A DNA stretch of 64,000 nucleotides, taken from assembly GCA_003612585.1 (NCBI GenBank), contig RAZH01000003.1:164968-228967 (forward strand), given 5' to 3'. Numbering within the stretch: the stretch's first letter is position 1; each line of letters starts with the position of its first letter. This document shows positions 4,033 through 56,988 of this stretch, piece after piece. The notes beneath the pieces were generated by a model. The model had not been told where the DNA came from, ran no database searches, and saw only the letters and a list, made by a program, of their open reading frames with translations. This DNA comes from a bacterium 1XD42-54. Its GTDB lineage: Bacteria > Bacillota > Clostridia > Lachnospirales > Lachnospiraceae. The position numbers and the translations under genes are program-made.

Positions 4033-4093
4033 AAAAAGAACCCCGCATAAAATATTCTTCCCCTGAAAAAATACCTTAAGCGGGATTCTTTTT
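4033..4093 (-). terminator. Rho-independent terminator downstream of rnpB
   Basis: Minus strand aaaagaatcccgct...gcggggttctttttg hairpin with U-run. Confidence 0.65.
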
Positions 4094-4096
4094 ATA

Positions 4097-4475
4097 AGCA
4101 GGACGATAAGCCGGGTTATGTCGTGAATGGTCATCTATCCAGACCTGCCGTTGCCGGCAGGTTCCAGCAACCTACCTGAAGCTGACGGGCCGCCATATGC
4201 TTCGTTTCGGTCTTGCTTCGGATGGGGTTTACATATGCCCCTCCCGTTACCGGGAGGGCGGTAGTCTCTTACACTGCCCTTCCACCCTTACCGGAGCCGC
4301 TTGCATGTTCCGTAAAACAGAATCCACAGCACTGCACCGGCGGTTCATTTCTGTTGCACTATCCTTAGAGTCGCCTCCACCGGACGTTATCCGGCATCCC
4401 TGCCCTGTGAAGCCCGGACTTTCCTCGTCTGGCACCTTTCGGCCTGCCAGCCGCGACCATTTATCCTACTTACAG
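4097..4475 (-). ncRNA. rnpB: RNase P RNA (bacterial)
   Basis: Minus strand contains GAGGAAAGTCCGGGCTTCACAGGGCAG, GGAGGCGACTCTAAGGATAGTGCAACAGAAA and 3' ACATAACCCGGCTTATCG, hallmark conserved regions of RNase P RNA. Confidence 0.95.
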
Positions 4476-55056: not shown

Positions 55057-56604
55057 TTATTCCGGTTCTTTCAGCAATACCAGTCCCTGCCCTGTAAGTA
55101 AATATCTGCTGCTGCACACCTCTTCGATGTATTTTCTGTCATGAGAAATGCTGATAATTGCTCCCTGATACGCCTTTAATATCTCACGGATTACAGGCCC
55201 GGAAAGGGGTGAAAAATTCCGCGTCGGCTCGTCGAGAAGCAAAACGTTTGCACCGGACATGCTCATCCTCAGCAGCAGTACCTTCGCCTTTTGTCCGCCG
55301 GACAGCTCTTTCATAGGATGCTCCATTTCATCCGTTGTATACCTCATTGCTCCAAGATAAGTACGCGCTTTCGTTCGGTCCTCTCTGCTGCCAGATGGCG
55401 CAAGATACTCAATCGGTGTCTGTTCCATTTCTAGCAAGTCCTCGTAATTCTGCGGCATATAAGCCACCGAAATATCCTTCCGGCCGAGCAGTTCCCGGGC
55501 AATGCGTTTTAACAGTGTCGTCTTTCCTGTTCCGTTTGTTCCGATAATACAGACCTTCTCCGGCCCTCTTACCCGTAAGGAAATATGCTCTGCCAAAATT
55601 GTGCCGTTTTTCTCCGCCTGCAGACGCTCCAGATATAAATCCAATACCATTTTCCCGGAAGGTAAAGAGGTTCCCTCACTCATCTTCAGGAAAACAGCCC
55701 GTTCCTCCTCGGGCATCTGTGTCATCGCCACGGCTTCCCGCTCATAACGACGCTCCATAGATTTCACTGCCTTCATTTTTTTCTTCAGAAGCTGACCGCC
55801 GTGCGGGTCCTGACGTGATATGTTGCGCTGCTCGTGTTCTACTCTTTGTTGAATTCTGCGAAATTTCTCCTGCCGGATCTCTTCCTGACGCCTGTCGTTT
55901 TTTGCCTCCCGTTCCTGCGTCTCAAACTGTGACGCCCGCTGCGACAGATATGTCTGATAATCGGTACGTACGATTGTATAACGGCAGACCGTTTTTCTGC
56001 GGATTTGCTCTATATGAATGATCACATTCGCCGTCCGTTCCAGCAGCGTCTCGTCATGTGAAATATACAGTACACTCTGCTGCGTACGAAGAATCAGCTC
56101 TTCCAGCCACTCAAGCGTCTCTGTATCCAGGTCATTTGTCGGCTCATCCAAAAGCAATATGGTTGGTTCCGCCATCAGAATCCGTGCCAACTGCACCTTG
56201 ATCTTTTCCCCACCGGAAAGCGTTTTCATTTTCTGTTCCCTATAAAAAAAGTCCGGATTCATCCTGAGTCTTCCTGCCATCTGTGCAAGTGACTTTGGAT
56301 TCTGCATAAAAAACAGTGGCTCCTCACAGAAAAATTCATATACGCTTTTTTCTTTTTCTTCTACGGGAAGCTCCTGCGGCAAATATCCAATCCTCTCTCC
56401 CCTGCAAATCCGTTCACCTACCGTCTCTACATACGACTCAACCAGCAGCGGATCTGCAATCCATTTCAGCAGCGTTGATTTACCGTTTCCCTCTTCCCCG
56501 ATAATGGCCGCTTTTTCCCCTTTCTGTAAGGTAAACGAAAAATCGTCCAAAATCGTTCTCAAATCTTTTTTGTGTACAATATTTAAGTTCTTAATCTGCA
56601 GCAT
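55057..56604 (-). CDS. ABC-F family ATPase (possible antibiotic-resistance/ribosome-protection subtype)
   Basis: Two NBDs: IIGEEGNGKSTLLKWIA / LSGGEKIKVQLARIL / LLDEPTNDLDTETLEWLEELIL and IIGTNGTGKTTLLKRIA / LSGGQKAKVLLLRM; no TM segments. Start at MLQIKN (an alternative ATG is 6 nt upstream). Confidence 0.9.
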   Translation of the reverse strand: MLQIKNLNIVHKKDLRTILDDFSFTLQKGEKAAIIGEEGNGKSTLLKWIADPLLVESYVETVGERICRGERIGYLPQELPVEEKEKSVYEFFCEEPLFFMQNPKSLAQMAGRLRMNPDFFYREQKMKTLSGGEKIKVQLARILMAEPTILLLDEPTNDLDTETLEWLEELILRTQQSVLYISHDETLLERTANVIIHIEQIRRKTVCRYTIVRTDYQTYLSQRASQFETQEREAKNDRRQEEIRQEKFRRIQQRVEHEQRNISRQDPHGGQLLKKKMKAVKSMERRYEREAVAMTQMPEEERAVFLKMSEGTSLPSGKMVLDLYLERLQAEKNGTILAEHISLRVRGPEKVCIIGTNGTGKTTLLKRIARELLGRKDISVAYMPQNYEDLLEMEQTPIEYLAPSGSREDRTKARTYLGAMRYTTDEMEHPMKELSGGQKAKVLLLRMSMSGANVLLLDEPTRNFSPLSGPVIREILKAYQGAIISISHDRKYIEEVCSSRYLLTGQGLVLLKEPE

Positions 56605-56683
56605 ATACATTCCCCCTGTCGTCTGCCTGCAACGCCATATCCTGCCAGATTTTTTATTGTATCGGACAAGTCCCAATACGACA

Positions 56684-56711
56684 AAAAATCTGCTTCCGTA
56701 TCCGAAAACAG
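56684..56711 (-). terminator. Leader terminator of the ABC-F gene (attenuator)
   Basis: Minus strand CTGTTTTCG-GATA-CGGAAGCAG-ATTTTTT. Confidence 0.75.
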
Positions 56712-56959
56712 ACCCCTGCACAAAAAGAACCCTCTATCATTCATATAGCAAAAGGCTCCGAATGTCCAGTCCATCGTCTTTTCCAACGATATCGTCTATT
56801 TGGCATACACAAACAACACCTGCCGCGCAGGCATCTAAAACTGTTTGTCTGTTTCCAACCAAATAAGACTATCTGAACATTTCCTCACCCGTCCGTGCCT
56901 AACAAGGCACGTGCCTTTCTTTTCTCATTTCTATCACTTCTGTGATACAAGCGTTTGCC

Positions 56960-56988
56960 ATTATATCATATGTATTCCGTAAACGCAA
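56960..56988 (-). promoter_or_regulatory. Sigma-A-type promoter of ABC-F gene
   Basis: Minus strand TTGCGT-17 nt-TATAAT. Confidence 0.65.

Follow-up and report, generated by a model that had tools for sequence, protein, structure and literature searches.

A leader with a predicted micro-ORF-controlled attenuator of the VmlR kind before an ABC-F gene of a Lachnospiraceae bacterium, and its relatives before other genes

Background

Detailed knowledge of antibiotic-induced attenuators comes from a few model genera. The leader of Bacillus subtilis vmlR carries a three-codon uORF (MIN) within SL-1, an anti-antiterminator, followed by the pause hairpin SL-2 and the terminator SL-3, and ribosomes stalled by lincomycin shift the leader RNA to the antiterminator form (PMC9226507). 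Micro-ORF-sensing attenuation before Firmicutes ABC-F genes has also been described for clostridial cplR (uORF MR[I/M]) and for Listeria monocytogenes lmo0919/vgaL, and Lsa-family and VmlR2 genes have micro-ORFs as well, MAGN in lsaA and MK[L/Q] in vmlR2 (PMC10201436). In Streptomyces, are5sc and tiaA (MLV and MVGDDDISG) combine a micro-ORF with a terminator and an antiterminator, and lincosamide, streptogramin A and pleuromutilin drugs stall ribosomes there on the start codon (PMC12421871).

The leader described here precedes an ABC-F gene in a 64,000-nucleotide stretch of a Lachnospiraceae genome, the whole of which we call the window, and it resembles each of these systems in part. As in vmlR, a predicted three-codon micro-ORF lies inside the first stem and the parts follow in the same order (PMC9226507), a candidate pause hairpin comes with TTNTTT, the 5' arm of the terminator is shared with an antiterminator from the first stem, and the gene behind the leader is an ABC-F from the same broad group, with VmlR2 as its nearest structure. 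It is set apart from the vmlR leader, as that leader has been described in print, by a AAAGAAAGG box and a hairpin (P0) that precede the Shine-Dalgarno sequence; unlike in vmlR, the micro-ORF ends in Arg-stop with its stop beginning the stem, and the leader occurs in Lachnospiraceae before several unrelated genes. The terminator stem of cplR contains the Shine-Dalgarno sequence of the gene, whereas here a variable spacer separates terminator and gene (PMC10201436). The are5sc and tiaA leaders, unlike ours, are actinobacterial (PMC12421871), and the published uORF consensus of lsaA and vmlR2 differs from M-x-x-R* (PMC10201436), while the leader family described here is common to Lsa-family genes and other ABC-Fs. 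The working principle is already published for VmlR, and also for CplR, VmlR2, LsaA and Are5sc; the leader family itself is previously undescribed, in that the openly readable literature searched gave no description of the Lachnospiraceae leader or of its use before several gene families.

Results and Discussion

The ABC-F gene and its leader

The features of the locus, in the order in which they are transcribed, are as follows.

56960..56988, minus strand: promoter, with a -35 of TTGCGT (56988-56983), a 17 nt spacer and an extended -10, TG-A-TATAAT (-10 at 56965-56960)
56894..56922, minus strand: AAAGAAAGG box (56922-56914) and hairpin P0 (CGTGCCT-TGTT-AGGCACG, 56911-56894); the match to search model R1 starts at 56922
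56883..56889, minus strand: Shine-Dalgarno sequence GGTGAGG of the micro-ORF, conserved in alignments
56869..56880, minus strand: micro-ORF ATG TTC AGA TAG (Met-Phe-Arg-stop, MFR*), conserved across leaders
56859..56873, minus strand: 5' arm of P1, the putative anti-antiterminator, overlapping the last micro-ORF codons (from pair counts and folding)
56847..56858, minus strand: segment UUGGAAACAGAC in the P1 loop, a putative lineage-specific antiterminator with 12 contiguous pairs to the terminator 5' arm at 56713-56702
56788..56808, minus strand: 3' arm of P1 (56803-56788) and the predicted family-wide antiterminator strand GUAUGCCAAAUAGAC (56808-56794)
56727..56758, minus strand: hairpin P2 (from folding), then TTCTTT (56729-56724), which fits the NusG pause motif TTNTTT; a candidate site for pausing
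56683..56713, minus strand: intrinsic terminator, TCTGTTTTCG-GATA-CGGAAGCAGA (56712-56689) with a U-tract (56688-56683)
56647..56693, minus strand: genome-specific inverted repeat, taken for an antiterminator in an earlier note on this DNA; not conserved, and 3' of the U-tract
55057..56604, minus strand: ABC-F gene, 515 aa, related to the ribosome-protection ABC-Fs, with VmlR2 (8BUU) the nearest among solved structures

The ABC-F protein has two ABC domains and its closest relatives are ARE-ABCFs; its best PDB match is VmlR2/ExpZ 8BUU, and in profile comparison the Vga model outscores the Uup and EttA models. It scores 314 bits against NCBI NF000355 (ribosomal protection-like ABC-F), below the cut-off of 380, and by sequence it is akin to the ribosome-protection group while lying outside this curated family; the gene is a putative ribosome-protection gene. 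No close relatives of the gene were found on plasmids. The start at 56604 that the earlier note had given is borne out by the ORF, agrees with relatives and has AGGGGGA upstream; a longer in-frame GTG start at 56721 was rejected because it lies inside the terminator region. The promoter named in the same note is also present, with a perfect -10 preceded by TG and a -35 that matches at only three of six positions. Its -10 region and the sequence 3' of it are conserved in the closest relative, L021 (ABC-F 83% identical), and transcription would be expected to start near 56953, within a stretch of about 350 nt between promoter and gene.

This leader is far more structured than chance, folding at -121.7 kcal/mol against -92.4 kcal/mol for shuffled sequences (z = -6.5, 0/100 shuffles as low). 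Loci were collected from 100 relatives, and many share a conserved layout: AAAGAAAGG, P0, GGTGAGGAA, a micro-ORF that is 2-4 codons long, P1 with a loop of variable sequence, P2 with U-rich sequence, and the terminator. P0 lies between the box and the Shine-Dalgarno sequence in 80 of 81 leaders and is small and covarying, with 46 different stem pairs. The micro-ORF, mostly M-x-x-R*, has a Shine-Dalgarno sequence in the 89 distinct leaders; its frame is kept, its length changes by whole codons, and its second and third codons differ from leader to leader (MIIR, MSSR, MRTR, MYRR). Arg-stop ends 86 of the 89, a share somewhat inflated by a search pattern that favoured Arg, Lys and Asn endings, and exceptions are known (MLN*, MIF*, MTI*). 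It may be pairing within P1, and not the peptide, that conserves the Arg codon and the stop. Rfam gave no family match above gathering score for the leader, only weak matches at chance level. Two more distant ABC-F relatives (L006 and L045) have leaders with a micro-ORF, a long stem and a terminator in which sequence similarity to the family is not visible, and these are possibly parallel inventions.

Conservation and covariation of the switch

RNAalifold returned no structure for the mixed alignment (A3) because two leader types register differently in it, and the stems were therefore named by hand and their pairs counted. The types are distinguished by their switch core, GTATGCCGAATTAGATTATC with TCTGTTTTCGGATAC in type I and GTGTACGCTTAAATTAGATTATC with TCTATTTTGCGTATGC in type II. 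P1 is a long stem whose 5' arm starts within the last micro-ORF codons (GATAR...) and overlaps the micro-ORF stop; 86% and 97% of its cells are paired, and its covariation score was reached by 1/500 and 0/500 shuffles. The terminator hairpin with six U, which the earlier note had already recognised, is paired in 95.9% of cells in type I, where 7 of 12 pairs have changed on both sides (0/500 shuffles as high), and in type II it is conserved with little two-sided change.

The pairing between the 3' arm of P1 and the 5' arm and loop of the terminator (56713-56698 in the window), which we take as the antiterminator, is possible in 86% and 95.5% of cells, compared with at most 57% and 71% for slid controls. 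Within each type there is little two-sided change and shuffles are not exceeded, so that the covariation of this pairing is mainly between leader types. The comparison of leaders with each other is what decides: each leader's own duplex averages -15.6 kcal/mol, against -14.6 kcal/mol for partners permuted within type (n = 86; 0/5000 permutations as low) and -13.3 kcal/mol for partners permuted overall among the 86, in a test that ignores ancestry, which inflates the result, such that the p-values are not to be taken literally. Across the 89 distinct leaders, P1 arms are in general better matched to their own terminator than to others. Compensating exchanges include CCGAA/UUCGG to CCUAA/UUAGG in L142 and L143 and CUGAAUCAGAC/GUCUGAUUUGG in L007 and L008, and leaders with fully changed sequence keep the pairing, among them L142, L182 as GUUACCAAAU/AUUUGGUGAC and L178 as GUGUUGGAA/UUCCAACAC. 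The family therefore has an antiterminator strand that lies 5' of the terminator 5' arm, overlaps it in pairing and is sequestered in the anti-antiterminator; the arrangement is weaker in the window than in the family, and in the window alone the family-wide pairing is moderately better than shuffled (40/500 as low).

Folding was also modelled for transcripts of 42 leaders that end just 3' of the terminator loop, with a ribosome masked at set codons. Median antiterminator pairing was 0.12 in the free transcript, 0.60 with the ribosome on the start codon and 0.80 with it on the last sense codon, and a control mask placed further upstream gave 0.14; masking the last micro-ORF codon raised the pairing in 37 of the 42. 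TTNTTT stands just 5' of the terminator in 25 of the 42 leaders, where 8.3 would be expected, and in 19 of 23 of type I. For the window with a stalled ribosome the model picks the 12-bp pairing of 56858-56847 with 56713-56702, which in forced-pair energies is 7-8 kcal/mol better than the family-wide antiterminator and is equalled by 3/1000 shuffles. As a family feature this P1-loop antiterminator was unsupported (own-versus-cross p = 0.29 and 0.64), and it was kept only for the close relatives of the window. The window leader in full length, modelled at equilibrium, prefers the terminator even when a ribosome is stalled on it (0.98), and the switch must therefore be kinetic, with the order of synthesis mattering. 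Order of synthesis matters in other attenuators too.

Proposed mechanism

We consider it very probable that the leader is a transcription attenuator of the VmlR kind under micro-ORF control. The reading draws on comparative sequence evidence, namely the conserved architecture, the micro-ORF, the covariation of P1 and the terminator, the matching of antiterminator strands to their own partners and the association with ABC-F genes. When no drug is present, ribosomes would translate MFR* and depart, P1 would fold and tie up the strand that is able to pair with the terminator 5' arm, and the terminator would form about 80 nt 5' of the ABC-F gene and end transcription. In the presence of drug, a ribosome stalled on the first micro-ORF codons would cover the 5' arm of P1, and the freed strand would pair with the terminator 5' arm once this is transcribed, blocking the terminator and letting the polymerase enter the ABC-F gene. 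For most relatives this strand would be the 3' arm of P1, and in the source genome the stronger 12-bp pairing of the P1 loop may serve instead or as well. The pause-like hairpin and its TTNTTT motif, ahead of the terminator, would leave time for the decision between the two folds. Stalling on the micro-ORF and induction of the window ABC-F by drug are both predicted, and the length of the micro-ORF, the presence of the leader before Lsa-family genes as well and the VmlR2-like protein together point to a pleuromutilin, lincosamide or streptogramin A (PLSA) as the probable inducer.

Alternative readings

The earlier note had proposed a probably drug-inducible attenuator with a leader peptide and mutually exclusive hairpins before the ABC-F gene, and in this outline comparative evidence supports it well; the two parts that it named for the mechanism do not hold. 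It placed stalling on a 9-codon ORF, MRKERHVPC*, and had a downstream repeat, ATACAATAAAAAATCTG, pair with the 3' arm and U-run of the terminator. The letters of both are there, and those of the downstream pairing are complementary (12 contiguous pairs, where shuffles average 7.9), but ATACAATAAAAAATCTG is made only after the U-tract, when the polymerase has passed or been released, and so it cannot prevent termination there or be a textbook antiterminator. That sequence 3' of a U-tract cannot act as an antiterminator corrects a common error. The repeat is absent from the 35 other genomes searched and from the L021 leader, which aligns with the window at 91% over 309 nt through the terminator, the next match starting 39 nt later; the stretch left without alignment is exactly where ATACAATAAAAAATCTG falls, and covariation that holds for the terminator and P1 is not seen for the downstream pairing. 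The 9-codon ORF has no Shine-Dalgarno sequence, its stop TAG reads CAG in L021, other relatives have no ATG at its position, and its bases are those of the conserved AAAGAAAGG box and structural hairpin. We rejected both parts on the position after the U-tract, the genome-specific repeat and the lost stop, and leave this version next to no credence. Overlooked at that time were the micro-ORF ATG TTC AGA TAG, the anti-antiterminator stem P1 and the upstream antiterminator pairing. The segment 56693-56647, a near-palindrome immediately 3' of the terminator, is single-copy in the source genome.

Control might instead be mainly translational, with read-through RNA hiding the ABC-F Shine-Dalgarno sequence and stalling on the micro-ORF exposing it, as in CplR. 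A translational layer is present in VmlR and CplR (PMC9226507, PMC10201436), and in some relatives the U-run is able to pair with the purine-rich Shine-Dalgarno region. The terminator, however, lies 80 nt 5' of the start in the window and 25-190 nt in relatives, a spacer that is not conserved, so that no shared sequestering hairpin is seen, and we hold this reading to be quite unlikely. A ligand-binding riboswitch or a tRNA or amino-acid attenuator, which a structured, conserved leader with a terminator would also suggest, is more improbable still: Rfam has no match for it, the Shine-Dalgarno sequence and micro-ORF overlap the switch stem, the targets are ABC-F and efflux-type genes and not metabolic ones, the P1 loop, in contrast to the core of an aptamer, is variable both in sequence and in length, and the variable second and third micro-ORF codons are unlike those of an amino-acid attenuator. 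There is somewhat more to be said for arrest at the Arg codon or at termination, caused by a particular drug class such as macrolides, in place of arrest on the start codon, since a modelled ribosome with the stop codon in its A site gives stronger antiterminator pairing (0.80 vs 0.60) and nearly all micro-ORFs end in Arg. Yet AGA-TAA/TAG also begins the P1 stem, where GATAR pairs with YTATC, which explains the Arg without a peptide effect; Arg/Lys endings were favoured by the search pattern and have the exceptions MLN, MIF and MTI; and the peptide is too short for a drug that acts in the tunnel. PLSA drugs, moreover, are known to stall ribosomes on the start codons of the VmlR and Are5sc micro-ORFs (PMC9226507, PMC12421871), and we regard the Arg or termination site as unlikely, with VmlR-like attenuation from the start of the micro-ORF as the preferred reading.

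Distribution and target genes

Genomes were searched for the leader with R1, a model of 124 positions that has a single match in the window (76.2 bits, E 7e-15). In the family itself, 52 of 396 sampled genomes (about one in eight) had a match, as did 28 of 295 from the order (seven of the 28 outside the family), 8 of 341 from the class and 4 of 399 from the phylum, one of these marginal. Three matches were set aside as chance, with no matching gene or leader: L184, L185 and that in G1078 (E 0.005), the only phylum-level match outside the order. At L179 (E 9e-5) the micro-ORF and stem are present and a clear antiterminator was not seen.

Among the 89 distinct leaders, 61 precede an ABC-F of the window type, 20 one of the Lsa family and 4 a Vga/Msr-like ABC-F. 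Three genomes (G173, G279 and G1113) have leaders before both a window-type ABC-F and an Lsa gene, and two more (G581 and G652) before a window-type ABC-F, a Vga-like ABC-F and an MFS transporter. A DJ-1/PfpI gene stands behind the leader in two further genomes (L153, E 7e-11; L182, E 0.006), the second of which, despite its E value, stands before a gene of that same family and has an antiterminator that is perfect, and in one genome a gene assigned by inspection as a GNAT-like acetyltransferase does so (L178, E 6e-5). Proteins of the target ABC-F classes share only about 25% identity and the leaders can still be aligned, and the simplest reading is therefore that new genes have captured the leader. 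The leader tree requires no fewer than 8 changes of ABC-F class, when 2 could have sufficed, although the tree has few columns and weak forks, and its well-supported forks alone force fewer changes. We consider it reasonably likely, with less assurance than for the attenuator itself, that the leader family is a mobile cassette for sensing translation inhibitors in Lachnospirales, set in front of three or more ABC-F lineages and, in some genomes, of MFS, DJ-1/PfpI and GNAT genes, and forming a multi-gene regulon without a protein regulator.

If this is true, the genes behind the leader, those for DJ-1/PfpI and GNAT proteins included, are candidates for new antibiotic-response or resistance genes. 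Because R1 recognises the leader by sequence, the leader could serve as bait: ribosome-targeting drugs probably induce any gene that follows it, however that gene is annotated. Coordinated changes in micro-ORF stem, antiterminator and terminator amount to a natural mutant series for the control of polymerase by a stalled ribosome.

Several single loci deserve mention. The MFS transporters of G652 and G581 follow relatives of the leader (L172 and L174, respectively); the micro-ORF of L174 is longer, MSSVVFA*, and the transporter behind it shows a weak match to models of Mef-type macrolide efflux, and for these reasons L174 may sense a different drug. The possible link of DJ-1/PfpI genes to translation inhibitors, raised by L153 and L182 in two separate genomes, is unexpected. 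The divergent leader L178 (about 160-360) has the micro-ORF MTI* and a perfect antiterminator of its own. At L131 a leader with a decayed terminator lies beside a transposase-like gene, without an ABC-F, and is apparently a relic after insertion. A stretch of 2142 bp that includes leader and ABC-F is identical in L065-L068 and L206, from records labelled Ezakiella, Clostridium, Eubacterium and G1382, which reflects either recent transfer or binning contamination. Within the window, the sole Rfam match is an RNase P RNA (class A) at 4091-4472 on the minus strand.
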